64,000 nt of DNA from Lachnospiraceae bacterium (lineage in GTDB: Bacteria > Bacillota > Clostridia > Lachnospirales > Lachnospiraceae), in assembly GCA_017395635.1 (NCBI GenBank), contig JAFQOE010000047.1:62001-126000 (forward strand), in the 5' to 3' direction. The stretch's first letter is position 1. Each line of letters starts with the position of its first letter. The position numbers and the translations under genes were made by a program. This document shows positions 31,434 to 51,325 of this stretch, in pieces. The notes beneath the pieces were generated by a model. That model did no database searches and was not told where the DNA came from. It saw nothing but the letters and a program-made list of their open reading frames with translations.

Positions 31434-31498
31434 GATTCATTTCCTCCTAAAATCTTTATAAAAAATTGTTAATTTGTTAACACTCCTATAATCAGCGA

Positions 31499-32155
31499 CT
31501 AATTTGCCACCTTAACCATGCTGTATCTTAACACATCTTCCTTGTACATATAACCTTTTTGAAGTTCTTCCACAACTACGTTCTCTCCATATTCCTCATC
31601 CTCAACATGCATTACTGCATTATGGAAATCCGGATTGAAATCTGCACCTGTTGCTTCCATCGGTTTCACACCTACATCATTCAAGGTTACCATTAACTGC
31701 TTGTAAATCTTATCCACGCCTTGCTCAAATGCTCTTTCTTTATCTTCTTCCGGAATCGCCTGCAATGCACGTTCAAAATTATCTACAACCGGAAGTAATT
31801 GCTCTAATACTTCCTTTGCTCCAACATCATACATACGTTTTGACTCTTTTTCATTACGATTCCTAGCATTTTCAAATTCAGCTAACAAACGCTTATATTT
31901 GTCATTCGCCTCTTCTAAAAGTTCTTTCTGCTTCTCCAATTCAAGTTCTAATGCTTTACTGTTACCACCACTTCTGCGACTATTCTTTTTACCTTTAACA
32001 GGCTTATTTTCTACATCCTCTGAAGTTTCTTTCACTTCAACTTCTGTCTCTTCTGTGGATTCTACCTTCACATCTTCTACTGTTTCCATAGTTGCTTTAT
32101 CAGTAGATTTTGCTTTCTTACTTGTTTTTGAACTGTTTTTTTTATTTTCTTCCAC
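31499..32155 (-). CDS. grpE: Nucleotide exchange factor GrpE
   Basis: 218 residues. A long charged N-terminal tail (Lys/Glu/Ser-rich, residues 1-75) precedes the coiled coil (LELELEKQKELLEEANDKYKR) and the GrpE signature (RNRNEKESKRMYDVGAKEVLEQLLPVVDNFERAL split over two lines; beta domain DFNPDFHNAVMHVE). The start is GTG 32155, with GAGGTG 5 nt upstream. It follows hrcA by 10 nt. Confidence 0.95.
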   Translation of the reverse strand: MEENKKNSSKTSKKAKSTDKATMETVEDVKVESTEETEVEVKETSEDVENKPVKGKKNSRRSGGNSKALELELEKQKELLEEANDKYKRLLAEFENARNRNEKESKRMYDVGAKEVLEQLLPVVDNFERALQAIPEEDKERAFEQGVDKIYKQLMVTLNDVGVKPMEATGADFNPDFHNAVMHVEDEEYGENVVVEELQKGYMYKEDVLRYSMVKVAN

Positions 32156-32165
32156 TCTGACACCT

Positions 32166-33197
32166 CTAATCTTTCTTCTTAAAAATTGTATCTAACTCAC
32201 CCGTAAGATTCTTAAGGGTGCTGACTACTTTCTGATAATCCATACGCTTAGGACCAATAATACCAATCGTTCCTCTTGCACCTTCCTGCAACTCATATGT
32301 TGCAGTTACAATACTACAATCCTTCATATTAGAAACAGGTGCTTCTTCACCAATATAGACTTGAATACCATTCGAATTCTCGCCATGCATGGACTCATCA
32401 ATCAGTTCATCCAGCCCTTGTCTTTCCTCTAATGCTTCTAATAACTTGGTAGTCTGCTCGATATTACCAAGTTCCGGATACTTTAACATATTCGTAGCAC
32501 CACTGGTGTATATCTCCACCTGATCTGCTTCATGGATTGCTTCCGTAATCCCCTGGAATATATTCTCCATAATGTCTGCAAACTCACCCGCCTGAGTCTT
32601 AATGGTCTGTATCATTTCCAAATTAATATCCTGTAACGATGCTCCTTGTAAAAATGTATTCAGTAATACATTCAATTTCAGTATCTCATCATTTTCCAGC
32701 ATACGCTCAACCTGCATTAATTTGTTCTTAATGACATTCCCATCTACCACAATAACTGCAAGCAACTGATTCTCATCCACCTGGGATAACTGAATGAACT
32801 TAAGCTTAGAATTCTGATACTGTGGTGCTGTAACTAATGTTGCATAATTCGTATTATATGCCAATACCTTTGCAACTTGTTTCAAAAGAGACTCCATCTT
32901 ATCCACTCTGTCTAAAAGCTGTGTCTTCATCTCTTCCATCTCAGTATCTTTCTCTATCATCATACGATCAACATACAAGCGATATCCTTTATCTGTCGGA
33001 ATACGACCTGCCGAAGTATGAGGTTGCATAATCAAACCAAGTTCTTCTAAGTCTGCCATCTCATTACGAATGGTTGCCGAACTTAGATTCAAATCCGTGT
33101 ATTTGGAAATGGTTCTTGAGCCTACCGGTTCACCGGTTTCCAAGTAATTAGAGATGATTGCTTTCAAAATCTTCAGTTTTCTATCATCTAATTCCAT
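32166..33197 (-). CDS. hrcA: Heat-inducible transcription repressor HrcA
   Basis: 343 residues. An N-terminal winged helix (KILKAIISNYLETGEPVGSRT; SSATIRNEMADLEELGLI) is followed by the GAF-like HrcA domain ending in VTATYELQEGARGTIGIIGPKRMDY. It binds the CIRCE element just upstream of its own start, 33223-33249, and is expected to repress the whole operon. AAGGGG lies 8 nt before ATG 33197. Confidence 0.96.
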   Translation of the reverse strand: MELDDRKLKILKAIISNYLETGEPVGSRTISKYTDLNLSSATIRNEMADLEELGLIMQPHTSAGRIPTDKGYRLYVDRMMIEKDTEMEEMKTQLLDRVDKMESLLKQVAKVLAYNTNYATLVTAPQYQNSKLKFIQLSQVDENQLLAVIVVDGNVIKNKLMQVERMLENDEILKLNVLLNTFLQGASLQDINLEMIQTIKTQAGEFADIMENIFQGITEAIHEADQVEIYTSGATNMLKYPELGNIEQTTKLLEALEERQGLDELIDESMHGENSNGIQVYIGEEAPVSNMKDCSIVTATYELQEGARGTIGIIGPKRMDYQKVVSTLKNLTGELDTIFKKKD

Positions 33198-36475: not shown

Positions 36476-37546
36476 CTAAAGTTTTTCTTTCCATTCCTTA
36501 ATCCATTCCAAATACTTAAATTTTTCTTGCTTAGTTGGTTCCAACATCATTCCTTCTGCCCACTCATTCCACGCATTAACGATTATCATATTATCATTTC
36601 TAATCAAATTTAAATATTTCATCACATGTTCCTTATCTGGCGGAGTAATAATATATCCTTTCACACCATGTCTAGGTGTATTATCCCAACCAAAAAAAAG
36701 ATTATGAAGTACTTTTTTATTATTACGATATCTTTTAATCATTATATCAAATAGAGCATTACCATCATATATTGTAATATCCTGATTTTTGCCTTTTATC
36801 GGACATGTTGTTTTAGTATTCTCTTTATATAGATAATCACTATAAAATTTGGCATGGTTCGGTTCACGCAAGCAAAACTGTTGTGAAATAGGCATAAAAA
36901 AAGTCTTTCCCGGATATATCGTCATTGCTGATTCAATAAGATACAATCCTTCAAATCCACATTCTCTACACCAATCATCAAATTTTTTGAACATCTTTGT
37001 TTTTCCTTTGAATCTTGGTTGAAAAACAAGAAAAACCGGTTTATTGTCTATTTTTTCATATCTATCATCTTGAAAAAAAGGTAAGAGATATTCAAAATGT
37101 TCTCTCCAATCATTTTCATCTCCATATGTTTGTTCTTGTAATACATTTTTTTTACCATCAATACTCTTATACCACGTATGATTAGCCCAACAAAAATAAT
37201 ATTTATGTTGAATTTCTTTCCACTTCAAAAAATTTTCTGCAGGTTTTTCCAACAACTTCTTTCCTTTAAAATAGTAATGATAATATACAAATCCGTCCAC
37301 ACCATATTGCTTAGCCAAATCTGTCTGCCATTTTACCGTTGCATAATCCAACAAACAATAATAATTATTATTTAACGGCTCCTGCGGTTGATGATGTCCA
37401 TCAAACAAAGATTTCGCATTTTTTGAATTTGTCCATTCTGTAAAACCATTTTCCCACCATGTATCATTCTCAGGAATTTGATGAAATTGTGGTAAATAAT
37501 ACGCAAACACCTTCAAATCAGATACCTCACTTTTATTATAGTTCAT
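36476..37546 (-). CDS. WbsX-family glycan synthesis protein (GH99-like)
   Basis: 356 residues with the WbsX pattern: [56 protein letters not shown] and a terminal [10 protein letters not shown]. WbsX proteins occur in O-antigen and capsule clusters and are called glycosyltransferases, although the fold is close to GH99 endo-acting glycoside hydrolases; the true reaction is unsettled. The start overlaps the previous glycosyltransferase by 4 nt (ATGA). Confidence 0.85.
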
Positions 37547-38514
37547 CCAAAATTCTTATTTTGTTTGTACACCAACACAAACAACTTAAAACTAAAACAA
37601 ATAACCAATGCACTTCCCTTTAAATGCACTGCAACTCCTTTTGCCAAAAGATAATCTTTAATATTTCTTCTAAGAATCCCTTTAATCTCCGCCACCCGTT
37701 TGTAATCTATATTATTTCCTTTTATCATAGCGGTAAGAATCCCCATTAGCTCAAGTATATACTTAGCTTTCAACTCTCTTTTTTTATCAGGGTACATCTT
37801 AATATATCGCTCTACATACTGCTTAACAACTACCACACCATTTTCAAATTCTACAGTATAACCATTGTTTGAAACACTACTTTTTCTTTGGACATAATGA
37901 TACTTACACTCTGTGCCGCATATCATTCCATTACTATTACTAATTGCATCACATTCATAAACATAATCTTCACAAACTTTCAATTTTTCATCAAACATTA
38001 TGTTTTTTATACATTCTACTGCAAACAATTTGGTACATAGCCATGCGTTTGTATCTTTCCCAACATGAAATGCAGCTAACGAATCCGCAACACCTAAATA
38101 CTTATTATTCTTCATTGCAAATCCTACCGATGTCGATCCGGCTTCTGTTTCAAGCCATGCACCACATGAAACAATGAAGTACTGCGTTTGATTCAATAAT
38201 CCATGTAAATATTCATACATATCTGATTCAATCCAGTCATCCGCATCACAAAACGCCACATACTTACCCTTCACCAACGAAAGACCTATATTGCGTGCTT
38301 TCGACACACCTAAATTCCCCTGATGCACAACCTGAACTCTTTTATCTACTTTTGCATATTCATCACAAATCATCCCCGATTTATCGCTCGAACCATCATC
38401 AATCAGTATAATTTGTAAATTCTTATATGTCTGATTAATTATGCTATCTAAACATTTTACTAAATAATTTTCAACATTATATACTGGTATGATTATACTT
38501 ATTAAATCATTCAT
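37543..38514 (-). CDS. Glycosyltransferase family 2
   Basis: 323 residues, GT-A fold. [21 protein letters not shown] at the N-terminus, [20 protein letters not shown], and the metal-binding FCDADDWIE are all present, followed by [10 protein letters not shown] in the acceptor region. The typical length of capsule/O-antigen GT2 enzymes is about 300-340. Donor and acceptor cannot be told. It follows the RfbF-like gene by 27 nt. Confidence 0.9.
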
Positions 38515-38541: not shown

Positions 38542-39312
38542 TCACCACAATTTCCAAGGTGCTTCCCCACTGGCCCATTCATCTTCTAAGTAATCCTTAT
38601 CTCTCATGGTATCCATCGGATACCAAAAACCATCATGCTGATATGCTGCCATCTGACCTGCTTCCGTCAACTTTTCATACGGAACAGTTTCCAACATATA
38701 TTGCTCGTCCAGATACGCTGCCACTTCCGGATTGAACACTGCATATCCCGCATTAACATAGGCCTGTTCTATTTTCGCTTTTTCCTTAAATGTTGTTACT
38801 AATTGCTTCTCCTCATCAATCTGAATCGTTCCCCATCTACCGGCCGGTTTCGCAGCGGTAATGGTAACAATTTTCCCCATCTTTTTATGAAATTCTAACA
38901 ATTCAGGTATATTCACATCTGACACACCATCGCCATAGGTCATCATAAAAGGCTCATCTTTTGTATATTTTAATATCTGCCTAATTCTTCCCGCAGTCGG
39001 TGTATGTAATCCTGTATTCACAAGGGTTACTTTCCATGGCTCCGATGTATTCTGATGAATCGTTGTGTCATTATTCTTTAAATCTACAGTAATATCCGAT
39101 TCATTCATATAATAATCCATAAAATATTCTTTTATCATATGTCCTTTGTATCCACAACAGATAATAAAATCATTAAAACCATAGGAAGAATATATTTTCA
39201 TAATATGCCATAAAATTGGTCTTCCTCCAATCTCTATCATCGGTTTCGGACGTAAATGCGATTCTTCACTAATACGAGAACCCATTCCGCCTGCTAAAAT
39301 TACAACCTTCAT
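38542..39312 (-). CDS. rfbF: Glucose-1-phosphate cytidylyltransferase
   Basis: 256 residues. VVILAGGMGSRISEESHLRPKPMIEIGG (nucleotide-binding loop) and IYSSYGFNDFIICCGYKG, MTYGDGVSDVNI and GFWYPMDTMRDKDYLE define RfbF rather than RmlA. It makes CDP-glucose from CTP and glucose 1-phosphate, the first step to CDP-3,6-dideoxyhexoses. The dehydratase and 3-dehydrase genes that follow biochemically lie upstream in the same cluster. GGAGG stands 7 nt before ATG 39312. Confidence 0.95.
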   Translation of the reverse strand: MKVVILAGGMGSRISEESHLRPKPMIEIGGRPILWHIMKIYSSYGFNDFIICCGYKGHMIKEYFMDYYMNESDITVDLKNNDTTIHQNTSEPWKVTLVNTGLHTPTAGRIRQILKYTKDEPFMMTYGDGVSDVNIPELLEFHKKMGKIVTITAAKPAGRWGTIQIDEEKQLVTTFKEKAKIEQAYVNAGYAVFNPEVAAYLDEQYMLETVPYEKLTEAGQMAAYQHDGFWYPMDTMRDKDYLEDEWASGEAPWKLW

Positions 39313-39370: not shown

Positions 39371-40318
39371 TTAACAATCTTTTTCATCAAAATTAAGTCT
39401 CTCTGATTCAATTACCAATGGTCGTTTCATAATCCTCTGATTAATGGTAATAATATACTCACCTAGCATCCCTATGAAAATCAATTGTACTGCACCAATA
39501 AAAAACATTCCTATTGTGACCGGTGCCATACCTGCAATAAATGATTCCCAAAATATTAATTTATATATCAAGTACACAACACCAAGCACTCCACTAATTA
39601 ACCCAAACAAAAAACCAAATAATGTACACAAACGTAAACCAATTTTAGTATAGGATGTAATGCTCAACATAGCTGCATCATACAATGTATACCAATTATT
39701 TTTGGTTTTTCCTGCTTTTCTTTTCGGCTGTAGATAAGGGATTTCCTTTCTCTCATAGCCTAATTCCGCTACAATACCCCTTAAAAACGGTTTTGGATCA
39801 TCCAATTGTCGCAACACTTCTACGAAACTCCTATCATATAACCCCGAACCGGTAAAATGTTCAATCTGATCCACTTCCGAAAACTTCTTAATGAATTTGT
39901 AATACAAACTTCTAAGTGCGTACACTATTTTATTTTCTTCACTATTCGTTTTAATACCAATTACAATCTTATAACCATTTTCCCATTCCTTTACATACTG
40001 TGGTATCAATTCAACCGGATCCTGAAAATCGCAAACCATAGTAATCACACAATCTCCCGTTGCTTGTAACATACCATAAAAAGGCGAATTAAATTGTCCA
40101 AAATTCTTCGCATTCAAAATTGCTTTTACCCTTTTATTTCTTTCACACATACCTTTTAGTAGCTCTCTTGTTCTATCAGTAGAATAATTATCAATAAATA
40201 TAACCTCATAATCATATTGGCTACATTTTTTCTGCAACACATCTATCACTGCAACACAGATTGGTTCTACATTATCTTCTTCATTATAACATGGTATTAA
40301 TACACTAATTTTTTTCAT
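39371..40318 (-). CDS. GtrB/DPM1-like polyprenyl-phosphate glycosyltransferase
   Basis: 315 residues: a GT2 catalytic domain (ISVLIPCYNEEDNVEPI; FIDNYSTDRT; VCDFQDPVELIP) with a C-terminal pair of transmembrane helices (LFGFLFGLISGVLGVVYLIY and VTIGMFFIGAVQLIFIGMLGEY). This layout is that of GtrB and ArnC-type enzymes, which load a sugar on undecaprenyl phosphate. In such systems a GT-C membrane enzyme uses the lipid-linked sugar outside the cell; a candidate is at 46337-48130. Its start overlaps the SDR gene by 14 nt. Confidence 0.88.
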   Translation of the reverse strand: MKKISVLIPCYNEEDNVEPICVAVIDVLQKKCSQYDYEVIFIDNYSTDRTRELLKGMCERNKRVKAILNAKNFGQFNSPFYGMLQATGDCVITMVCDFQDPVELIPQYVKEWENGYKIVIGIKTNSEENKIVYALRSLYYKFIKKFSEVDQIEHFTGSGLYDRSFVEVLRQLDDPKPFLRGIVAELGYERKEIPYLQPKRKAGKTKNNWYTLYDAAMLSITSYTKIGLRLCTLFGFLFGLISGVLGVVYLIYKLIFWESFIAGMAPVTIGMFFIGAVQLIFIGMLGEYIITINQRIMKRPLVIESERLNFDEKDC

Positions 40319-41231
40319 ATGAATCCTTCTCTCTCACCCATTTGATTGTTTCTTTTATTCCATCAATAAAGTTTGTCTTCACAGTAAATCCCGTATCTTT
40401 ACACAAATCCGATATATCTGCACACAAGTGCATGACTTGATCTTTTGAATATGGTATTTTCCCTATATCAACTTGCAAATCAGAGGATATAACATTACGT
40501 ATATCAATAATATAATCTCTTAATAGTCGTGTTTGTCCACTTCCTAAGCAATACACCTTTCCATCTTTTCCTTTTTCTGCAATTAAACACAACGCTTCTG
40601 CAGCATCATCACAGTACAAATAGTCCCATTCTTGCTCCCCTTTTGTAAACTCAGGAACTTCACCATTTAGCAATTTGTGAATCTCTGTCATAATCATCGT
40701 ATTGTCTCCATCATATGGACCAAATATGCTAAATATTCGTGACCATATAAAACGCATATTCAATTCATTACACAACACTTTCCCCATCTGTCCTGCACAT
40801 AATTTAGCAAAGCCATAACCTATCATAGGAAATGTAGGAGAATTGGGCGACAGCGGAACATCCGATGGGCCATACTCCGCCTGAGAACCTGCGCCTATAA
40901 AAGTATGACAGCCAACTCTTTTCGCAGCATGTATTGCATCCAACAAATATGTAACATTACGATTCTGCATATACATATCATTCCTTCCGGAACCGGAAGC
41001 TCCACACCACGCCAAATGAAACCATATATCATAACTCTCTTCTAATACTAAGGAATTATACTCGCTAATATCTTTTTCTATAATTTCAAGTAAGGGATGC
41101 TTCGGCAACCATTCTTTTCGAACAGATTGTGGATTCACAATTGCCAACACAAAAATATTATTCTTTATACATCGTCTTATTAATGCCATTCCAATTGTGC
41201 CGGTTGCACCAGTAATAATTACTTTGTTCAT
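40305..41231 (-). CDS. Extended SDR: NAD-dependent epimerase/dehydratase or reductase
   Basis: 308 residues with a Rossmann nucleotide loop (VIITGATGTIGMALI), an active-site region GAGSQAEYG and YGFAKLCAG (Tyr-xxx-Lys), and FSIFGPYDGDN. It is of the sugar-nucleotide epimerase type. Next to the ThDP carboligase it could do the job of YerF, the reductase that completes CDP-yersiniose after YerE, or be a 4-ketoreductase like RfbJ. AGGAG stands 6 nt before ATG 41231; the frame opens at 41252. Confidence 0.82.
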   Translation of the reverse strand: MNKVIITGATGTIGMALIRRCIKNNIFVLAIVNPQSVRKEWLPKHPLLEIIEKDISEYNSLVLEESYDIWFHLAWCGASGSGRNDMYMQNRNVTYLLDAIHAAKRVGCHTFIGAGSQAEYGPSDVPLSPNSPTFPMIGYGFAKLCAGQMGKVLCNELNMRFIWSRIFSIFGPYDGDNTMIMTEIHKLLNGEVPEFTKGEQEWDYLYCDDAAEALCLIAEKGKDGKVYCLGSGQTRLLRDYIIDIRNVISSDLQVDIGKIPYSKDQVMHLCADISDLCKDTGFTVKTNFIDGIKETIKWVREKDSYEKN

Positions 41232-41251
41232 CCCATTCTCCTTAATTTTCA

Positions 41252-43051
41252 CTACTTCATTTCATATAGTGGAATAATCATGTTACTTCTAAATTCTTCT
41301 TCCGGCAACGGAGGATTCAAATACTCCAATGGTAATGACTCCATCTGTCCGTCGCTTCGTTTGTAACTTACCTGTTTCGGAAAAACCGCCTGATCAATCG
41401 AAACCATAACTTCACATATTACAGGACCACTTTCTTCCAACACCCATCTAACCTTTTCAGCCAATTCTTCATTATAATCAATTCGAATATGCTTTAATTT
41501 ATATGCACCTGCAATATCTGAAATATTAGGAATAGATAGATTAGAATCCTCGTTACAAGCCACATAATGTTCTGCAAAAATATTCTTCTGCGTTCCTTTT
41601 ATCTGGGCATATCCTCTATTACTAAGCACAAATATCTTAATTGGCAACTGTAATCTGCGAATGGTTTCTAATTCTTGTATATTCATCTGGAAACCACCAT
41701 CCCCCTGTACAGATACTGTTCTTTTTCCATCACTTGCCAAACAAGCTCCTATTGTAGAAGGAAGACCATAGCCCATAGACGCAAGACCTTTTGTTGTGAA
41801 TACTCTCTGCCCACATTTCACACGAAATGTCTGCATGGATACATCAATGCAGCTTCCTGAGCTTCCAATTACAAAAATATCATCTTTAGTTAACTGATCT
41901 GACAATGTATCTAATAATGCATATGTATTCACATAATCCTGCTGGTTCCACTTATCTTTTGTCATAATTGGATATTTCTTTTTCAAGTTAGTTGCATATT
42001 CTATCCATGAAGAATAATCTTTCTTCTGTATTTTATCTTTTTGTCGTAACAACTCATCAAGAAATTCTTTAGCATCTGCACATATCTTAATGTCTGGTCT
42101 TACATTTACTTTATTGAGTTCATTTTCATCAATATCTACCATTATTTTCGTTGCGCATCTTGCGAAACCATCAAAATTATATCCCGTCTGTAACAAATTC
42201 AATCTTGTACCAATTGACAAAAAGAAATCCGAATTCTGTTGTACAAAATTCGCATATCTTTGACCTAATCCACCCGGTCTTCCGAAATAAAGAGGATAAT
42301 CTTCTTCTATCAAATCAATACCATTCCATGTTGTGACAATCGGAATCTTAAGTTCCTCTATCAGTTGTCTAAACTCTTTTATTCCATCTGCCATTCTGAT
42401 ACCATTTCCAGCCATAATAACCGGTCGTTCTGCTTTATTAAATGCTTCTATTACCTCACTGACTTTTTGTTTCAAATCAGTTGAGGATGGTAAAATAGAA
42501 GGTGAAAAACCTACAAGGTTGTTTTCGTCAATCATACTAGCTTGAATATCTAACGGAATATCAATCCAAACCGGACCTTTTCGACCATTCATCGCTTCGT
42601 ATAGTGCTCGATCAAGATGGTATTTAATACTCATTGGATCCGTAACCATTACTGCATATTTTGTAATAGGTTTCACTACCGAAATAATATCTAATTCCTG
42701 CATTCCCATCTGTCTCAAATGTTGATCACCAATCTGATCCGCTATCTTCACTTGCCCTGATAGAATCAGTACAGGTGTCGATTCAATATAAGCACCAGCT
42801 ACACCGGTAATTGCATTGGTTCCACCCGGACCAGTCGTAACCATAACTAATCCCAACCTGTTATTTACCCTTGCATATGCTTCTGCTGCAATTGCACATG
42901 CCTGTTCATGCAGACAACACACATACTGAATCTTCTCACTTTTCCCAAGAGAATCATTCAAGTGCATCGCACCACCACCAGGTATCATAAACATATGTCT
43001 AATATCCAATTGTTCTAAATATTTGATTACATAATCCGATAATTTTATCAA
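41252..43051 (-). CDS. Thiamin-diphosphate-dependent carboligase (acetolactate synthase-like, YerE-like context)
   Basis: 599 residues with the three-domain ThDP enzyme plan. CCLHEQACAIAAEAYARV has the catalytic Glu; the central domain is of the acetolactate synthase type (VIMAGNGIRMADG); the ThDP motif GDGGFQMNIQELETIRRLQLP continues to a conserved Asn. Acetolactate synthase catalytic subunits are this long, but the position in a CDP-dideoxysugar cluster points to YerE-like transfer of a two-carbon unit from a 2-oxoacid to a 4-keto sugar. TTG 43051 is the start, with GAGG 8 nt upstream. It ends one codon before the open frame of the SDR. Confidence 0.85.
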   Translation of the reverse strand: MIKLSDYVIKYLEQLDIRHMFMIPGGGAMHLNDSLGKSEKIQYVCCLHEQACAIAAEAYARVNNRLGLVMVTTGPGGTNAITGVAGAYIESTPVLILSGQVKIADQIGDQHLRQMGMQELDIISVVKPITKYAVMVTDPMSIKYHLDRALYEAMNGRKGPVWIDIPLDIQASMIDENNLVGFSPSILPSSTDLKQKVSEVIEAFNKAERPVIMAGNGIRMADGIKEFRQLIEELKIPIVTTWNGIDLIEEDYPLYFGRPGGLGQRYANFVQQNSDFFLSIGTRLNLLQTGYNFDGFARCATKIMVDIDENELNKVNVRPDIKICADAKEFLDELLRQKDKIQKKDYSSWIEYATNLKKKYPIMTKDKWNQQDYVNTYALLDTLSDQLTKDDIFVIGSSGSCIDVSMQTFRVKCGQRVFTTKGLASMGYGLPSTIGACLASDGKRTVSVQGDGGFQMNIQELETIRRLQLPIKIFVLSNRGYAQIKGTQKNIFAEHYVACNEDSNLSIPNISDIAGAYKLKHIRIDYNEELAEKVRWVLEESGPVICEVMVSIDQAVFPKQVSYKRSDGQMESLPLEYLNPPLPEEEFRSNMIIPLYEMK

Positions 43052-43069
43052 TATTACTACCTCAATTCT

Positions 43070-43891
43070 CTATTCTGCCACTGAAAACTCATGATATTTT
43101 ATAAGTTCCTCAATCAAATCATTTTTAATTGTAGTACTCTCATATCCACCCTTTACATCCATTTTACGAAGCAGATATTCCATCGTCAAATTACCATCTC
43201 TCCATTTTCCGCCTAAGCCCAAATGAGTTACATCCATATAATCTGCTCCTTGTTCAAGTGCCAAATCTGCCAATTCCTCCGCTGTTCCATTTTTGTCATG
43301 GAGATGAACACCAACCTTAATATTTTCATCGTGACAAAGTGCTATTGTATTAATTATATAGTCTTTTGTCATCACACTTTCTGTATCTGCAAATTCCACC
43401 GATTCCACACCCATTTCCTTTGCAAATCGAACAAATTCTTTATTTTTTTCCATCGTATTGTATCCAGCACTAGTATAATTGATAAAGACCTCATAACCAA
43501 GTTTTTTAGATAATTCAACATGCTCAGCCAAAACCAAAAAATCGGTTTCGTGTGAACGTGTAAGAATACGAATCGTATCAATAATACTCTCTTCTTTAGG
43601 CAATAATTCTGATAATGGGCGTTGTATATCCCTCATAGCAGATAATTTTGTAATATTTTTCACATTTTTAAATGTATCTTTGATTTCCTGATTCCTAATA
43701 CTACAATATCTAAAATTCCCTTTTCCCGGATCTGCCTCTTCGCTATGAAAAAAACCCAACTCTACATAATCAATACCTTTTCCCAAGGCAAATTTATATA
43801 CTTTTTTTGCAAATTCATCACTATAGTACCAGCCAGTCTGATAACCCACTTCCCTCAGTGTGCAATCAAAAATTCTGACATTATTAATCAT
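43070..43891 (-). CDS. DRE-TIM metallolyase (HMG-CoA lyase/4-hydroxy-2-oxovalerate aldolase-like)
   Basis: 273 residues, a TIM-barrel of the HMGL family. FDCTLREVGYQTGW carries the Asp/Arg/Glu (DRE) residues, YVELGFFHSEE and VEFADTESVM lie on central strands, and VGVHLHDKNGTAEELA supplies the metal-binding His pair. It lacks the C-terminal domain of DmpG aldolase (about 340 aa) and of isopropylmalate synthase. A carbon-carbon lyase or aldol role on a 2-oxoacid is plausible; the substrate is unknown. AGGAGG lies before ATG 43891, and the ThDP enzyme follows after 18 nt, so the two are likely partners. Confidence 0.82.
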   Translation of the reverse strand: MINNVRIFDCTLREVGYQTGWYYSDEFAKKVYKFALGKGIDYVELGFFHSEEADPGKGNFRYCSIRNQEIKDTFKNVKNITKLSAMRDIQRPLSELLPKEESIIDTIRILTRSHETDFLVLAEHVELSKKLGYEVFINYTSAGYNTMEKNKEFVRFAKEMGVESVEFADTESVMTKDYIINTIALCHDENIKVGVHLHDKNGTAEELADLALEQGADYMDVTHLGLGGKWRDGNLTMEYLLRKMDVKGGYESTTIKNDLIEELIKYHEFSVAE

Positions 43892-43943
43892 CTGTATTTC
43901 CTCCTGTTATCTTAATCCGATACAAATCGCTACCAGACTTTAG

Positions 43944-45287
43944 TTAAATCAATTCCGTCACTGCACTCTTCAACGTAGCAATCATATAGTCAAGCATTGT
44001 ATGATTCATACCCGGGTATACCCCAATCCAAAAGCTATGCTTCATAATATGATTAGTCACTTCCAAAGAACCAACCTGTCTATATCCTTTTCCGGTTAAT
44101 CTCATTTCATCAAAGCAAGGGTGTTTAATGAGATTGCCTGCAAACAACATTCTGGTTTGAACTCCATGACTCTCCAAATAGTCAACAACCCGATTGCGTT
44201 CAACCCCATCTTTACATGTAATCAAATAACCAAACCAGCTTGGATTCGAATCCTCACATGCCTTCGGTAATATGAATTTATCCTGCACTCCACTTAAGTG
44301 ACTTGTTAAGTAAGCAAAATGTTCACGTCTCTTTTCCACAAATTCAGGAATCTTTTCTAACTGTGCGCACCCAATTGCGGCCTGCATATCGGTTGCTTTC
44401 AAATTATACCCAAAATGCGAATACACATACTTATGATCATATCCTCTTGGCAATTCTCCATATTGTCCTTCATATCGATGTCCACACTGATTGTCAACAC
44501 CGGATGGACAACTGCAATCTCTACCCCAATCTCGCATAGAACGAATAATTTTGTGAAGTAAAGGATTGTTTGTATATACTGCTCCTCCTTCACCCATAGT
44601 CATATGATGTGGTGGATAAAAACTCGAAGTTCCAATGTCCCCAATTGTGCCTGTTTTATAAGCGACACCATTCAGTATATACTCTGAACCTAACGCATCA
44701 CAATTATCTTCAATCAACCATAGTTTGTGTTTATCACAAAACTCTTTTACCGTCTTCAAATCAAAAGGATTGCCTAAAGTATGTGCCAACATAATTGCCT
44801 TCGTCTTTGAAGAATATGCTTCTTCTAACATATTCACATCAATATTATATTGAGGAATTGTCACATCCACAAACACCGGAACTGCACCATACTGTATAAT
44901 CGGTGCCACCGTGGTCGGAAAACCACAAGCTACTGTAATGACTTCGTCTCCCGGTCTGATTTGTCTCTCTTTTAGCAATGGTGATGTCAAGGTCATAAAG
45001 CCTAACAAATTGGCAGAAGATCCCGAATTAACCAAGGAACAATATCGAATTCCAAGATACTTTGCTAATTTCTCTTCAAACTCTTTTGTGTATCTTCCGG
45101 AGGTCAACCAAAACTCTAACGAAGAATCCACAAGTTTCATCATTTCTTCCCTGTCATAGACACGCTTGGCATAAGCAATACGTTCTCCCATCTGATACTC
45201 ACTTTGATTATGAAATTTATCGCAGTATTCACCAGCTAATTCAACCACATATCGTCTTGCTTCTTCTTCTGTCATTTGTTCAAACAT
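43944..45287 (-). CDS. rfbH: CDP-6-deoxy-4-ketoglucose 3-dehydrase (E1)
   Basis: 447 residues of the DegT/AryC1 aminotransferase fold. At the Schiff-base position the sequence is FYPPHHMTMGEGGAVYT: a His replaces Lys, as in E1/RfbH, which uses PMP with a [2Fe-2S] cluster. The cluster cysteines are seen in DWGRDCSCPSGVDNQCGH. It dehydrates C3 of CDP-4-keto-6-deoxyglucose and needs a flavin-iron-sulfur reductase (E3), which I do not find here. Its start overlaps the rfbG stop by 8 nt, with GGGGGA upstream. Confidence 0.95.
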   Translation of the reverse strand: MFEQMTEEEARRYVVELAGEYCDKFHNQSEYQMGERIAYAKRVYDREEMMKLVDSSLEFWLTSGRYTKEFEEKLAKYLGIRYCSLVNSGSSANLLGFMTLTSPLLKERQIRPGDEVITVACGFPTTVAPIIQYGAVPVFVDVTIPQYNIDVNMLEEAYSSKTKAIMLAHTLGNPFDLKTVKEFCDKHKLWLIEDNCDALGSEYILNGVAYKTGTIGDIGTSSFYPPHHMTMGEGGAVYTNNPLLHKIIRSMRDWGRDCSCPSGVDNQCGHRYEGQYGELPRGYDHKYVYSHFGYNLKATDMQAAIGCAQLEKIPEFVEKRREHFAYLTSHLSGVQDKFILPKACEDSNPSWFGYLITCKDGVERNRVVDYLESHGVQTRMLFAGNLIKHPCFDEMRLTGKGYRQVGSLEVTNHIMKHSFWIGVYPGMNHTMLDYMIATLKSAVTELI

Positions 45288-46350
45288 TCAATAGTCCCCC
45301 AATCTGTCTATCCGTAACTTCTATCATATTCATACCGGTATAATATGCTTTATACCATTCCACCGTCTTTTGAACCGCCTCTTCCACTGTCCAAAATGGT
45401 TTCCAATCAAATGTATTCTTTAACTTCGTACAATCCAACTTCAAAAATCCTGCCTCATGCGGTCCACCGTCATGCTGATTCACCCACTTCACATCATCAC
45501 CCCAGTATTGACAGAACAAATCAGCCAACTCCCCTGTTGTGATACAACTCTCATCATCCGGACCCACATTATAGCTCCCCTGTTTACTTCTGTCTTCATA
45601 CTGCTCCTTCGCAATCAGCAAATATGTATATAAAGGTTCCAAAACATGCTGAAACGGTCGAATGGAATACGGATTACGCAATACAATATCCTTTCCTGCA
45701 ATGACAGCTCTGTAACAATCCGGAACAATTCGATCCTTCGCAAAATCTCCACCACCAATAACATTACCGGCTCTTGCGGTAGATACTGCAACATCCATTT
45801 CGCCTAAAAAAGAACGAACATAACTGTGCGTCACCAACTCTGAGCAGGATTTGCTATTAGAGTAAGGATCATTCCCATTCAAATACATGTCTTCCGTAAA
45901 CGGAATCTCTGTCTCATCATTTTGATACACCTTATCTGTTGTTACATTGACAAAAGAACGTACACAAGCATTCTTTCTTATGCACTCACATACATGTACC
46001 GTACCCATTACATTCGTCTCATAGGTATATAACGGATTCTGATAGGATTCCCTTACAATTGGTTGTGCGGCAAGATGAAATACTATTTCCGGCTGAAACT
46101 TCTCAAAAACCATACTCAATTCCTGAAAATCGCGTATATCACCTATATACGTATTCACAGATGAATTCTGTCCCAAAATCGTATAAAGTGCCGGAGTTGT
46201 TGGTGCCTCTAAACTATACCCTTGTACAATCGCTCCGAAACGCTGTAGCATCTGACACAACATAGCACCTTTAAAACCGGTATTTCCGGTCACAAATACC
46301 TTTTTATCCTTATAAAATTCGATTAGTGATTTTGCTTTATGGATTGACAA
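45280..46350 (-). CDS. rfbG: CDP-glucose 4,6-dehydratase
   Basis: 356 residues, extended SDR. VFVTGNTGFKGAMLCQML is the RfbG-type nucleotide loop; NVTTDKVYQNDE, YSNSKSCSELVTHSY (Tyr-xxx-Lys) and RAGNVIGGGDFAKDRIVPD are characteristic. It converts CDP-glucose to CDP-4-keto-6-deoxyglucose. The start is TTG 46350 with GGAGG 6 nt upstream. It overlaps the membrane glycosyltransferase gene by 14 nt and rfbH by 8 nt, forming a tight block. Confidence 0.95.
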   Translation of the reverse strand: MSIHKAKSLIEFYKDKKVFVTGNTGFKGAMLCQMLQRFGAIVQGYSLEAPTTPALYTILGQNSSVNTYIGDIRDFQELSMVFEKFQPEIVFHLAAQPIVRESYQNPLYTYETNVMGTVHVCECIRKNACVRSFVNVTTDKVYQNDETEIPFTEDMYLNGNDPYSNSKSCSELVTHSYVRSFLGEMDVAVSTARAGNVIGGGDFAKDRIVPDCYRAVIAGKDIVLRNPYSIRPFQHVLEPLYTYLLIAKEQYEDRSKQGSYNVGPDDESCITTGELADLFCQYWGDDVKWVNQHDGGPHEAGFLKLDCTKLKNTFDWKPFWTVEEAVQKTVEWYKAYYTGMNMIEVTDRQIGGLLNV

Positions 46351-48130
46351 GATATACCTCCATCTGCATGTTTTGAATATATTGCGTATCCAAATGTTTC
46401 ATCTCTGTTTCCGGTTCCAAATCTTCTAAAAATGCTATTATTTCTTCATACTGTCGAATCACTTCTTCCGAATCAGCCTGCTGAAGAATAACCTTCCAGT
46501 CATCAACAGTATACTCTTGTTCCGCGGATTGTTTTAGTGAAGCATCCAATATTACTATCACACCTTCGTCTTTTTTCTCTTCATATAACGCCTTTACATT
46601 CTCATATTCCCGATAATCTACCAATGAAAACATATCAGCATACATTAGAGTCGGAACCATTGTAGTCAATACCCACGAAGAATTTGTTACATAAATACAA
46701 TTCTCATTCTTCACAATATCTTCAAATTTCGCATTTCCTTGCCTCTTGAATGCATATATCCCAGGCAAAGTACAATTGTAACAATTAACACCAACCAAAA
46801 CAATACAAGCTATTAAAAGTATAATTTGTGACCTTTTTTTCTTTTTGAATATAATCAATGACAACTGATATATCAACGCCATTCCAATAATTGCCAATAT
46901 CGGAAAAACATAAAATAAATACCTGTCTATCGCCGGTCCCATTGCATACACATATGAGGTTTCACCAACTACAAACATTTGTCCTATAATAGTTGCAAAT
47001 AACAGTATATAGACCCAATTTGTTCTCCGCATAAGATAGCGCCATGTCCTACATGGATGTAAAAAAACAATTTTATTATACTTTACAAACTTTTTCATTC
47101 CCACTGTATCTCTCAATAAATAAAACAGAGGAATACATACTATCAATAGAAAAACCAACACTCCCAATACAATCGGCACAGTAGCGGATGCATACATGGA
47201 TATTGAAATATTAAACATCTTTTTCATCATATAGTGAGATAAAATCAGAAAACGCATCGTGAAATTATAATCTGTATACGACGCCTCTGTACTAATCTTA
47301 TTTTCTGTAACCTGAAACATGGCAGGAAAAATACTAACAGATAATATAAAAATTGCTAGCATAAAAAAACCGAACCCGAATGTCAATTTGTACTCTCTCT
47401 TAAACAAGAAAAATGCACATATGCAAAATGTCAATATTCCCATAAAAGAAACAACATAATAATGAGTCAGAAAACCTATTAGTGAAGCAACACCAATTGC
47501 AATCAAATTAAACTGAAGCAACTTGTGGTTTTCTTTGTATTTCTGCAAATATCTTAATATATTATATAAGATTATCATAATCAATGCTGTACACATAGCA
47601 TACATTCTCAAATATACGTGTGTATCACGTGCACCCATACTAAATCCATACAATGCACAACAACAAAGTGCAAACACATCATTTTTTAACAATTTTGCCG
47701 TTTTGAACAGAAAAATCATGGTCACAAGAAATGATACAATATTAATGGAAAATGAAAACCATCTAGAATACTGTTCCGGAAAAAACGAACATATTGTATG
47801 TAATACCATACTGTGAAACGGAGGACTAAGATCTACAATCTGATTGTTGTATATAGACCCATACTGAAATCGTTCTCCATCGTTTACAACAATATAATCA
47901 TTCAGTACCTGCGCATTGCTCCATTCATTGATATACAGCAGATTCCCTTGGTTATCCTGATAGATATCTTTCAGATTATAACTATTGGCAAATCCATAAG
48001 ACCAGATTTCATCCGAATGATATCCTTCTTTCCAAAACTGAAAATAGCATATTATACTGATAAGTTGTATACAAATCATAATCGTTAATATAATATACAC
48101 TCTCTTCTTACTACATTCTTCTTTCTTCAT
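46337..48130 (-). CDS. GT-C-type membrane glycosyltransferase (GT39/ArnT-like)
   Basis: 597 residues with about ten to twelve transmembrane helices and a large extracytoplasmic C-terminal part after about residue 490. The first loop has HSDEIWSYG, resembling the acidic pair of GT39/GT83 enzymes, and RDTHVYLRMYAM lies where such enzymes have a conserved Arg-rich segment. It would move a sugar from a polyprenyl phosphate to an external acceptor, with the GtrB-like enzyme as supplier. ATG 48130 or GTG 48133 both fit the AAAGGAG site. It starts 25 nt after hemW. Confidence 0.8.
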   Translation of the reverse strand: MKKEECSKKRVYIILTIMICIQLISIICYFQFWKEGYHSDEIWSYGFANSYNLKDIYQDNQGNLLYINEWSNAQVLNDYIVVNDGERFQYGSIYNNQIVDLSPPFHSMVLHTICSFFPEQYSRWFSFSINIVSFLVTMIFLFKTAKLLKNDVFALCCCALYGFSMGARDTHVYLRMYAMCTALIMIILYNILRYLQKYKENHKLLQFNLIAIGVASLIGFLTHYYVVSFMGILTFCICAFFLFKREYKLTFGFGFFMLAIFILSVSIFPAMFQVTENKISTEASYTDYNFTMRFLILSHYMMKKMFNISISMYASATVPIVLGVLVFLLIVCIPLFYLLRDTVGMKKFVKYNKIVFLHPCRTWRYLMRRTNWVYILLFATIIGQMFVVGETSYVYAMGPAIDRYLFYVFPILAIIGMALIYQLSLIIFKKKKRSQIILLIACIVLVGVNCYNCTLPGIYAFKRQGNAKFEDIVKNENCIYVTNSSWVLTTMVPTLMYADMFSLVDYREYENVKALYEEKKDEGVIVILDASLKQSAEQEYTVDDWKVILQQADSEEVIRQYEEIIAFLEDLEPETEMKHLDTQYIQNMQMEVYLVNP

Positions 48131-48155
48131 CACTATGTACTCCTTTGTTTCATCT

Positions 48156-49511
48156 TTATAACATAAACTCTGCCATTATCACATTGCTGACATCAATTCC
48201 TGCATCACTCAAAAAAATGTTCTCTTCTTTCTCTATCAACAATTCCTGATTCACATATTTTTGAATTATTTTTCCATAAACACTTTCTATTCCTACACCA
48301 AAACGTTGTTTGAATTCTTCCTTTGATACACCACTTGTACAACGAAGTCCCAAAAACATAAACTCTTCCATCTCGTCTTTTCGTTTCAGAAATTGTAAAT
48401 CTTTATAATAATCTCTCACAAATTCCAAAAGTGCATTGTTCTCATATTGACGATATTTTTGTAAATTGGCATTATCTCCAGCATATGACAAGTCCATTCC
48501 TATACTCATTTCAAGCGTTTCTTCGAAACCCACATACACTTCATCTTCATAATAATGATAGGTATTAGTATAAGAATCTTCTCTCATTCCTTCGCAATTC
48601 GAAAATCTTCCGATATACTCATCCATATTCTCTACACCATGAAAACGAACTCGTTCACATTTCTCATCGTCAATCCTCACTTGAAGATAAGACGAGGCCC
48701 CCAAACCTATTCCCAAATACTCTCCACCAGTCCAGTAGACCAGATTATGCCGACATTCATATCCATGTTTAGCATAATTAGATATCTCATATCGATTATA
48801 TTTGCTATTCCTAAGCAACATTTTGGTCTTAGCATATAATTGCCGATCCAATTCTTCTGACGGCAAAACATCTAACAACGCATCATTATCGTATAAAGGT
48901 GTTCCTTCTTCTACAATTAAACTATAAGCGGAAATGTGTTCCGGTTGCAACGCAACCACTTTTGCCAACGTTCTAAGGTAAGACTCTGTTGACTCCCCCG
49001 GAAGACCCGACATCAAATCCACGTTAATATTACTATATCCTACCTGTCTTGCATTACTGTATGCTGCAATAAATTGATCATAATTATGAACTCTTCCTAA
49101 CAGCTTTAACAGTTCGTCATTGGCACTTTGCAATCCAATACTCAAGCGATTAATTCCTACTTTGCGATATACTGCCAATTTGTCCTTTGTAAGACTATCC
49201 GGATTTCCTTCTATGGTAATCTCCGCCTGTTCATCTACATAAAATACTCCTCGTATTGTTTCCATAACCAGCTCAATCAAAGATGCATCTATATAGGAAG
49301 GGGTTCCTCCACCAAAAAATATAGTTTTGATAACATACTCATTTGCAATCGACTTATAAGCCTTTATTTCCTTACAAAGTGCAGTTATATATTGCTTATG
49401 ACTACTGTAACTACAGCCTGCAAAAGATAGAAAATCACAGTAATTACATTTCGCCTTACAAAATGGAATATGCACGTATATACTTAATTCTCTCTTCTTA
49501 GGGTTCTTCAT
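48156..49511 (-). CDS. hemW: Radical SAM heme chaperone HemW
   Basis: 451 residues, longer than the usual 380. The radical SAM motif is CKAKCNYCDF in YVHIPFCKAKCNYCDFLSF; FFGGGTPSYI and ISAYSLIVEEGTPL are typical of HemW, as is the C-terminal domain FLGLRCTSGVSKEEF. It is often misnamed coproporphyrinogen oxidase; HemW relatives transfer heme. The start overlaps the lepA stop by one base (TAATG). In Bacillus hrcA follows directly, but here the glycan cluster intervenes. Confidence 0.93.
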   Translation of the reverse strand: MKNPKKRELSIYVHIPFCKAKCNYCDFLSFAGCSYSSHKQYITALCKEIKAYKSIANEYVIKTIFFGGGTPSYIDASLIELVMETIRGVFYVDEQAEITIEGNPDSLTKDKLAVYRKVGINRLSIGLQSANDELLKLLGRVHNYDQFIAAYSNARQVGYSNINVDLMSGLPGESTESYLRTLAKVVALQPEHISAYSLIVEEGTPLYDNDALLDVLPSEELDRQLYAKTKMLLRNSKYNRYEISNYAKHGYECRHNLVYWTGGEYLGIGLGASSYLQVRIDDEKCERVRFHGVENMDEYIGRFSNCEGMREDSYTNTYHYYEDEVYVGFEETLEMSIGMDLSYAGDNANLQKYRQYENNALLEFVRDYYKDLQFLKRKDEMEEFMFLGLRCTSGVSKEEFKQRFGVGIESVYGKIIQKYVNQELLIEKEENIFLSDAGIDVSNVIMAEFML

Positions 49512-51325
49512 TATTCCTCATCCAATTTCAACACACTCATAAATGCCTTTTGCGGAATTTCTACATTACCAATCTGACGCATACGCTTCTTACCTTCTTT
49601 TTGCTTTTCAAGAAGCTTTTTCTTACGGGTAATATCACCACCATAACATTTCGCCAGCACGTCTTTACGAAGAGCTTTCACTGTTTCTCTCGCAATAATC
49701 TTGCTTCCAATCGCAGCCTGAATCGGTATTTCAAACAAATGTCTCGGGATTTCTCCTTTTAATTTCTCGCACATTTTACGTCCGCGTTCGTATGCCGTAT
49801 CTGCATGTACAATAAATGAAAGTGCATCCACTTCTTCTTTATTAATCAATATATCAAGCTTCACCAGATTGGAACGAACATAACCGTTCATTTCATAATC
49901 AAAAGAGGCATAACCTCGCGAACGGGACTTTAAGGCATCAAAGAAATCATATATAATTTCATTCAATGGCAAATCATACTTTAACAACGCTCTTGTCTCT
50001 TCTATATATTCCATACTCTTATACACACCTCGTCGTTCCTGACAAAGCTGCATAATCGCACCTACATAATCCTTTGTTACCATGATTTCTGCGGAAACAA
50101 ATGGTTCTTCCATGTAATCAATCATGGATGGATCCGGTAAATTGGACGGATTCGTCAACTCAATCATTTCACCATCTGTTTTGTGCACTCGATAGATAAC
50201 CCCCGGTGCTGTAGTAACTAAATCTAAATTATACTCTCTTTCTAAACGTTCCTGAATAATCTCAAGATGCAATAATCCCAAGAAACCACAGCGATAACCA
50301 AAGCCTAAGGCAATAGAAGTTTCCGGTTCATAGCTCAAAGCTGCATCATTAAGCTGAAGTTTCTCTAAAGCATCACGCAAATCAGGATACTTCGCTCCAT
50401 CTGCAGGATACAACCCACAATAAACCATTGGATTTGCTTTCTTGTAACCCGGTAAAGCTTCTATACATGGATGATTGGCATCTGTTACCGTGTCACCTAC
50501 CTGTGTTTCTTTTACATCCTTAAGACTCGCCGTAATATATCCTACCATTCCTGCCGAAAGTTCATCTTGCGGAATAAACTGTCCTGCACCAAAAATACCA
50601 ACCTCTACGACCTCTACAGTTGCACCGGTTGCCATCATCTTAATCTGGGTTCCTTTGCGTACCGACCCATCAAACAAACGACAGAAAATGATAACACCCT
50701 TGTAAGCATCATACTTACTGTCAAAAATCAATGCTTTCAGGGATGCATCCGGATTTCCCAACGGTGCCGGAATCTTCTCTACAATCTGTTCCAACACATC
50801 TTCAATATTAAGACCTGTCTTAGCTGAGATGCGTGGTGCATCCATAGCCTCAATACCAATCACATCCTCAATCTCATTCGCCACACGGTCAGGATCTGCA
50901 CTTGGTAAGTCAATCTTATTGATAACAGGCATAACCTCTAAGTCATTATCAATCGCCAAATATACATTAGCCAAAGTCTGTGCTTCAATTCCCTGTGCCG
51001 CATCCACCACTAAAATTGCACCCTCGCAGGCCGCTAAACTTCTAGAAACCTCATAGTTAAAATCCACATGTCCCGGTGTATCAATCAAGTTGAAAATATA
51101 TTCTTCTCCATTCTTTGCCTTATAGACAATGCGGACAGCTTGCGCTTTAATGGTAATACCACGTTCGCGTTCCAATTCCATATTATCAAGAACCTGCGCT
51201 TGCATTTCACGATCTGTCAACAAACCGGTTTTCTCTATTATTCGGTCAGCCAAAGTCGACTTACCATGGTCAATATGTGCAATAATACTAAAATTACGAA
51301 TTTTATTCTGATCTAAATGTGCCAT
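49511..51325 (-). CDS. lepA: Elongation factor 4 (LepA)
   Basis: 604 residues. The GTPase motifs [32 protein letters not shown] and NKIDLPSAD are followed by the LepA-specific C-terminal domain ([22 protein letters not shown] split at YGGDI). It acts on stalled or back-translocated ribosomes. GGAGATAACA precedes the ATG, and a short hairpin lies in the leader. Confidence 0.97.

Follow-up and report, generated by a model that had tools for sequence, protein, structure and literature searches.

Why should a gene for a metal-dependent lyase stand between a CDP-3,6-dideoxyhexose pathway and a thiamine diphosphate (ThDP)-dependent carboligase? The question is raised by a 64,000-nucleotide stretch of DNA from a Lachnospiraceae bacterium (contig JAFQOE010000047.1 of assembly GCA_017395635.1, positions 62,001 to 126,000), referred to here as the window. 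The first-pass annotation had described rfbF, rfbG and rfbH together with a lyase, a ThDP enzyme and a short-chain dehydrogenase/reductase (SDR), and these genes were indeed found in one operon, all on the minus strand, in the order of transcription membrane protein, rfbG, rfbH, lyase, ThDP gene, SDR, family 2 glycosyltransferase (GT2), rfbF and further glycosyltransferases. The genes that carry the argument are listed below, with bit scores followed by the cut-off where one applies.

45280..46350, minus strand: rfbG, CDP-glucose 4,6-dehydratase (NCBIfam TIGR02622, 415 against 278 bits)
43944..45287, minus strand: rfbH, CDP-4-keto-6-deoxyglucose 3-dehydrase, which makes the 3-deoxy acceptor (NF011936, 707 against 423 bits; motif SFYPPHHMTMGEGG)
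43070..43891, minus strand: 273-amino-acid DRE-TIM metal aldolase, proposed maker of the 4-hydroxy-2-oxoacid donor (Pfam HMGL-like, 54 against 29 bits)
41252..43051, minus strand: ThDP-dependent carboligase, YerE/JanthE-like (three TPP_enzyme Pfam domains; HEQ at 48, GDG at 450)
40305..41252, minus strand: extended SDR, proposed branch-ketone reductase (Pfam Epimerase, 116 bits; motifs GATGTIG and YGFAK)
38542..39312, minus strand: rfbF, glucose-1-phosphate cytidylyltransferase (TIGR02623, 376 against 300 bits)

A neighbourhood supplying CDP-4-keto-3,6-dideoxyhexose is present, with rfbF, rfbG and rfbH all above curated NCBIfam cut-offs, and the operon holds a gene for each step: RfbF, RfbG and RfbH for the ketosugar, the lyase for the donor, the ThDP enzyme for the addition and the SDR for the reduction. 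The likely answer to the question is that the lyase makes a 4-hydroxy-2-oxoacid, which the ThDP enzyme adds, with loss of CO2, at C4 of CDP-4-keto-3,6-dideoxyhexose, and that the SDR then reduces the branch ketone. Observed directly were the gene content and families, the predicted fold of the lyase, its conserved pairing with the ThDP gene and the variety of donor makers that accompany a single ThDP family. The word aldolase is an interpretation, since no NCBIfam model exceeded its cut-off with the lyase and Pfam returned only HMGL-like, with ComA under its cut-off.

The lyase, the ThDP enzyme and their pairing

Seventeen of the 19 loci found for the lyase also held a ThDP gene of the same family, adjoining it in 14 of the 17 (18 bp apart in the window; two genes away in locus L057), and the array is therefore not a chance arrangement. 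The lyase is the better conserved of the two, with a median pairwise identity over 16 of the 17 paired loci of 62%, compared with 42% for the ThDP enzymes. The rfbH gene lay inside the stretch at 13 of the 19 loci and elsewhere in the genome at two more (L050 and L107/G403). Four lyase genomes (L055, L056, L058 and L059) gave no rfbH match at E 1e-80. Two of these carry the lyase with a diverged ThDP gene, 33–36% identical to that of the window (L055:10001-12663 and L056:10001-12721).

In the other two, L058 and L059, a CTP_transf_3 protein (CMP-Kdo/CMP-sialate synthetase family) is encoded directly after the lyase, and a ThDP gene is absent from the 15 kb and 9 kb, respectively, that were read around it, the genomes not having been searched for one. 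This arrangement, in genomes with no rfbH match, suggests that the lyase product behaves like a 3-deoxy-2-ulosonate. Since other loci pair the lyase with a ThDP gene, its product seems to have two uses, one as the precursor of a CMP-ulosonate and one together with the ThDP enzyme. The same two loci favour a different explanation of the window, namely that its ThDP enzyme works with plain pyruvate in the manner of YerE (the yersiniose type of pathway) and that the lyase product has a separate use, such as serving another sugar in the form of a free ulosonic acid. This is considered unlikely; no CTP_transf_3-family cytidylyltransferase was found among the window neighbours scanned, and the short gap between lyase and ThDP gene, like their adjacency in most paired loci, speaks against separate uses.

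Other paired loci vary in their remaining genes. An HAD phosphatase gene follows the ThDP gene in L051 and L061. In L052, L053, L057 and L062, a UDP-glucose-dehydrogenase-like gene and an SDR, identified from one of each in L062 (6293-8622), precede rfbH where rfbG would be expected, which suggests a pentose-type acceptor, perhaps CDP-4-ketopentose.

The lyase belongs to the DRE-TIM metallolyase superfamily, with a predicted TIM barrel and the R-D/E and HxH metal motif. The best 50 structural matches of its model were aldolases, acyl-CoA synthases and lyases, and carboxyltransferases of this superfamily; the nearest was 3dxi from Bacteroides vulgatus, listed as a putative aldolase, followed by 4-hydroxy-2-oxovalerate aldolases. 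The DRE-TIM fold and the metal site are shared with DmpG, the aldolase of the DmpG/DmpF pair, whereas the DmpG communication domain (no PF07836 match) and the catalytic histidine are both missing from the lyase, which scored 38 bits against a cut-off of 286 with the 4-hydroxy-2-oxovalerate aldolase model TIGR03217. It is improbable that the lyase is instead a Claisen-type synthase, like isopropylmalate, citramalate or homocitrate synthase, forming a 2-oxoacid precursor from an acyl-CoA. The superfamily is common to both kinds of enzyme, a homocitrate synthase was the second PDB sequence match of the lyase, and in the alignment Glu14 of the lyase stands at a metal position shared with that synthase; the top NCBIfam score of the lyase was also for 2-isopropylmalate synthase, at 45 bits with a cut-off of 517.

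Distant paralogues of the lyase were found on plasmids (eight matches, 25–27% identity). Five of the eight regions were checked for a ThDP neighbour; none was listed at the four annotated ones, for which the gene table is incomplete, and the fifth carries no annotation. A paralogue on a Leisingera plasmid lies beside a Kdo cytidylyltransferase and an HAD hydrolase. Among the matches listed for DRE-TIM ulosonate aldolases in the open-licence literature, to which all literature searches reported here refer, none mentioned DRE-TIM.

The closest PDB sequence to the window ThDP enzyme was 8rph (409 bits), with an acetolactate synthase (AHAS) next at 265 bits; identity was 36% to the former and 29–33% to five AHAS. 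Passages of PMC12188165 identify 8rph as JanthE and term it a YerE-like enzyme; JanthE has a CDG motif, whereas the window enzyme has the canonical GDG. In a quick, midpoint-rooted tree of 99 ThDP proteins with SH-aLRT support, the five AHAS formed a single clade (support 100), and 86 rows, including the window enzyme and JanthE, stood together on another side. The AHAS clade includes a second ThDP protein of the window's own genome. Judged by sequence, the ThDP enzyme is nearer to YerE-like enzymes than to AHAS, the comparison being made through JanthE and not YerE itself. Eight proteins of the set branched nearer AHAS; within 8 kb of them, rfbF, rfbG and rfbH were all found in six of the eight cases, rfbF and rfbH in one more, and a donor maker in one. 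These eight may be of a pyruvate-using type.

The hardest of the alternatives to credit takes the ThDP enzyme for a divergent acetolactate synthase and the operon for one that holds an amino-acid pathway out of place. AHAS models did give its best NCBIfam scores, headed by TIGR00118 with 381 bits, but the cut-off of that model is 538, and the enzyme remained below the cut-off of every AHAS model among the best 25 of 54 families. At the locus, the only part of the genome searched for one, no small-subunit gene adjoins the ThDP gene and there is no room for one (18 bp to the lyase, a 1-base overlap with the SDR), whereas a small subunit adjoins ilvB or ilvG in all four such genes examined with their flanks. 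An acetolactate synthase with a small-subunit partner was consequently rejected on the scores, the missing adjoining gene and the separate clade, and the outcome that the first-pass annotation had named as refuting its reading, a ThDP enzyme grouping within true AHAS with a small-subunit partner, did not occur. Among 1666 plasmid records searched by tblastn with the ThDP enzyme, none matched at 60% identity or more; the best of the 30 best rows, an ilvB, reached 33.5%.

Donor makers beside the ThDP family

When 392 sampled genomes of the order were searched with the ThDP alignment, 78 were found to carry the family, at 81 places at E 1e-130. The 81 neighbourhoods, the window and L035 included, became 80 when L147, in which no ThDP open reading frame was called, was dropped. 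Donor makers were identified by similarity and counted if they lay on the same strand no more than 8 kb away; a DRE-TIM protein was classed as long from 480 amino acids upwards. Under these rules 32 of the 80 loci hold a 4-hydroxy-2-oxoacid maker: a long DRE-TIM protein in 19, a NeuB type in eight, the 273-amino-acid lyase in three and a 4-hydroxy-2-oxovalerate aldolase in two. Long DRE-TIM proteins from L100, L117 and L173, seven of the eight NeuB types and both aldolases were scanned against family libraries. Two near-misses were counted as having none, L148, whose long DRE-TIM gene is on the opposite strand to the ThDP gene and three genes away from it, and L175, where a 341-amino-acid DRE-TIM protein adjoins it.

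The two aldolases (L134 and L158) are genuine, passing TIGR03217 with 349 and 360 bits against 286. An acylating acetaldehyde dehydrogenase gene (374 and 346 against 282 bits) comes before each of them, the resulting pair, of the DmpG/DmpF kind, stands directly before the ThDP gene, and both clusters hold rfbF, rfbG and rfbH. An HAD phosphatase was found near nine of the 19 long DRE-TIM loci, compared with one of the 48 loci with no maker (p 2e-5), and in L117 (6461-8761) the long DRE-TIM protein and the phosphatase are fused in 766 amino acids, which suggests a phosphorylated aldol product. The NeuB types include NeuB-cupin proteins (L104 and L161) and NeuB proteins with no SAF domain (L131 and L150), with a KdsC-GmhA-type gene in L131, L150 and L152.

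Some long proteins have further parts. Those at L100:6991-8616 and L109:11213-12808 have a C-terminal part of about 265 amino acids, with no Pfam match there in L100, the only one scanned, and a 1066-amino-acid protein adjoining the ThDP gene (L173:6466-9666) combines a DRE-TIM part with a weak GT2 match. In L119 (10416-14323) and L125 (4635-8505), the interval from rfbH to the ThDP gene encodes two proteins of about 440 amino acids, alike by eye, on either side of one of about 405; of the proteins of about 440, that at L119:10416-11735 was scanned and is similar to AMP-dependent CoA ligases.

The ThDP family goes together with rfbH, which was found in 70 of the 78 ThDP-family genomes compared with 89 of the whole sample of 392. 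As a control, 20 rfbH loci were taken from 19 genomes with rfbH and no ThDP match, several of them ending at contig ends and one covering only 3.2 kb; by the same similarity rules no donor maker lay within eight genes of rfbH in any of the 20, against 17 of the 34 loci with both rfbH and the ThDP gene (p 5e-5). The difference held when the window and L035 were left out (15 of 32, p 1e-4) and when L163 was counted as having no maker (16 of 34, p 1e-4). One control locus, L184, encodes a 243-amino-acid protein 29% like the KdsC-GmhA fusion, which was not counted as a maker.

The first-pass annotation had seen in the lyase a possible source of an unusual 2-oxoacid donor. Comparative genomics supports this part of the claim, in that a single ThDP family has various 4-hydroxy-2-oxoacid makers as neighbours; as a principle it is not new, being already known in part from ErwE and caryophyllose (see below). 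The use of plain pyruvate is opposed by the same observations, several kinds of maker occupying the same place and none being found at rfbH loci that lack the ThDP gene. The first-pass annotation had also allowed for action of the lyase on the sugar chain, which would mean retro-aldol trimming or chain extension once the branch is in place, and no part in making the donor. Aldolases are reversible and the gene order is compatible with such a role, but the same place is taken by NeuB types and by the 4-hydroxy-2-oxovalerate aldolase/acetaldehyde dehydrogenase pair, which build acids of this kind out of small precursors, and action on the chain is very improbable.

Several findings weigh against a dedicated donor pathway in the window. 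Under the rules used, 48 of the 80 ThDP loci have no maker, which also favours the use of pyruvate, and the p values given above ignore shared ancestry; in the comparison with the control, moreover, eight genes around rfbH were set against 8 kb around the ThDP gene. Two of the NeuB matches (L160 and L163) exceed the N-acetylneuraminate synthase cut-off and may serve another sugar, through sialic acid synthesis. The lyase and the ThDP gene are six genes apart in L035 and L060, and the pairs in L055 and L056, whose genomes gave no rfbH match, imply another ketone acceptor, so that the acceptor is not fixed. JanthE stands on a long branch of the tree, which makes its exact place unsure. No gene supplying an aldehyde was recognised in the window cluster. 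Finally, all 18 lyase sequences have a tyrosine (Tyr17) after the RDxx motif, aligned with the histidine of the L134 and L158 aldolases. That histidine is catalytic in 4-hydroxy-2-oxovalerate aldolase, and the chemistry of the lyase may therefore differ from that of this enzyme.

Proposed pathway and neighbouring genes

In the pathway preferred here, RfbF, RfbG and RfbH would provide CDP-4-keto-3,6-dideoxyglucose, and the 273-amino-acid DRE-TIM enzyme, as a metal-dependent pyruvate aldolase, would join pyruvate and an aldehyde to a 3-deoxy-4-hydroxy-2-oxoacid. The ThDP enzyme would decarboxylate this oxoacid and attach the acyl anion at the keto carbon C4 of the CDP-sugar; the product would be a tertiary alcohol bearing a 3'-hydroxyacyl branch. 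Reduction of the branch ketone by the SDR would leave a 1',3'-diol, as in branches of the caryophyllose type. Undecaprenyl phosphate would probably then be loaded with the sugar by the GT2 enzyme, so that the sugar can be transferred outside the membrane. The remaining genes of the cluster are the following.

46337..48133, minus strand: membrane protein with about 10 hydrophobic segments, a possible GT-C transferase by hydropathy (no Pfam match)
39371..40318, minus strand: GT2 with two C-terminal hydrophobic segments, apparently of the polyprenyl-phosphate sugar transferase type (NCBIfam PgfS, 178 bits, below its cut-off of 500)
37543..38514, minus strand: GT2 glycosyltransferase (Pfam Glycos_transf_2, 122 bits)
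36476..37546, minus strand: WbsX-family glycosyltransferase (PF14307, 330 bits)

The rfbF gene lies about 1 kb downstream of the block from rfbG to the SDR, behind the first of these GT2 genes and outside 40305..46350. The second NCBIfam match of that GT2 was PRK10714 (118 bits, cut-off 529). Homologues of this PgfS/ArnC-like protein with at least 40% identity were found anywhere in the stretch at 37 of the 81 ThDP loci, the window included, compared with one of the 20 rfbH loci with no ThDP gene, and the sugar product may therefore be loaded on undecaprenyl phosphate. No NCBIfam model exceeded its cut-off with the SDR. In aminotransferases, a lysine stands at the position of the histidine in the RfbH motif; the window protein has this histidine (HH) where the pyridoxal phosphate lysine would stand, and was assigned to RfbH on this residue together with its equivalog score. 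Its Cys-rich stretch reads CSCPSGVDNQC (three Cys), that of L060 CFCNPGCDNSC (four Cys). The window cluster, to which the search was confined, showed no recognisable reductase partner for RfbH. Homologues of the membrane protein (37–45% identity) adjoin rfbG in three relatives.

The glycan cluster is flanked in the window by hemW-lepA (29583-33197) and hrcA-grpE-dnaK (48156-51325), names assigned by eye. In L033/L049 and L032/L047 the cluster likewise has a HemW or LepA homologue next to it, and in L109 and L099 the distance between LepA and the ThDP gene is about 6–7 kb; the region beside hemW-lepA may therefore be an insertion hotspot for glycan genes. The window gave no Rfam match at gathering thresholds, and no tRNA was found in it.

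The layout seems to recur in related bacteria with interchangeable side-chain makers, which points to undescribed surface sugars; since the ThDP family occurs in 78 of the 392 sampled genomes, undescribed branched sugars may be common in the order. More tentatively, and with confidence falling a little short of even, the 273-amino-acid protein is proposed as a new branch of DRE-TIM aldolases making sugar-like 3-deoxy-2-ulosonates with no need of phosphoenolpyruvate, within an order-wide set of modular makers that feed one ThDP family and lead to unknown higher-carbon branched surface sugars. The structure of the branch could then be guessed from the gene neighbouring the ThDP gene, and the enzyme pairs could be useful for making chiral tertiary alcohols.

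Comparison with known branched-sugar systems

In the yersiniose pathway the reductase acts after YerE, and that pathway is not known to include a lyase. The acceptor and the ThDP carboligase are of the same kind as in the window, YerE acting on CDP-3,6-dideoxy-4-ketoglucose (review section of PMC12247030); YerE uses pyruvate, whereas a different donor is proposed for the window. A closer parallel is ErwE of the erwiniose pathway of Pectobacterium atrosepticum, a YerE-like ThDP enzyme which, according to the same section, prefers hydroxylated 2-oxoacids such as 4-hydroxy-2-oxopentanoate, does not use pyruvate and has CDP-4-keto-3,6-dideoxyglucose as its natural acceptor, the in vitro work having been done with an acceptor analogue (PMC12247030). 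These donor and acceptor preferences match those proposed for the window enzyme from its genome context.

MMAR_2332 of Mycobacterium marinum, connected with caryophyllose, is described there with a donor preference similar to that of ErwE, its activity with ketone acceptors still pending (PMC12247030). Caryophyllose is given in passages of PMC5706390 as 3,6-dideoxy-4-C-(1,3,4,5-tetrahydroxyhexyl)-hexopyranose. Because the branch bears hydroxyls at 1, 3, 4 and 5 and none at 2, it may be what a 3-deoxy-2-ulosonate leaves once it has lost CO2, been added at C4 and had its ketone reduced. Its pathway would thus yield the type of branch expected from the donor proposed for the window, although in another phylum and in a glycolipid setting.

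The source of the long hydroxylated donor of the erwiniose and caryophyllose type is not addressed in the review section of PMC12247030, and the present clusters suggest a general one, a dedicated and exchangeable maker beside the ThDP enzyme. Among the matches listed for YerE-like enzymes joined with aldolases, only PMC12247030 and PMC12188165 name YerE-like enzymes, their aldolase passages being general, and the link to donor makers may have been published elsewhere. Within that literature, the 273-amino-acid lyase family and the varied donor makers beside one ThDP family were not seen described and appear to be new, whereas the cluster as a whole belongs, as a variant, with the YerE-like branched-sugar pathways already known.

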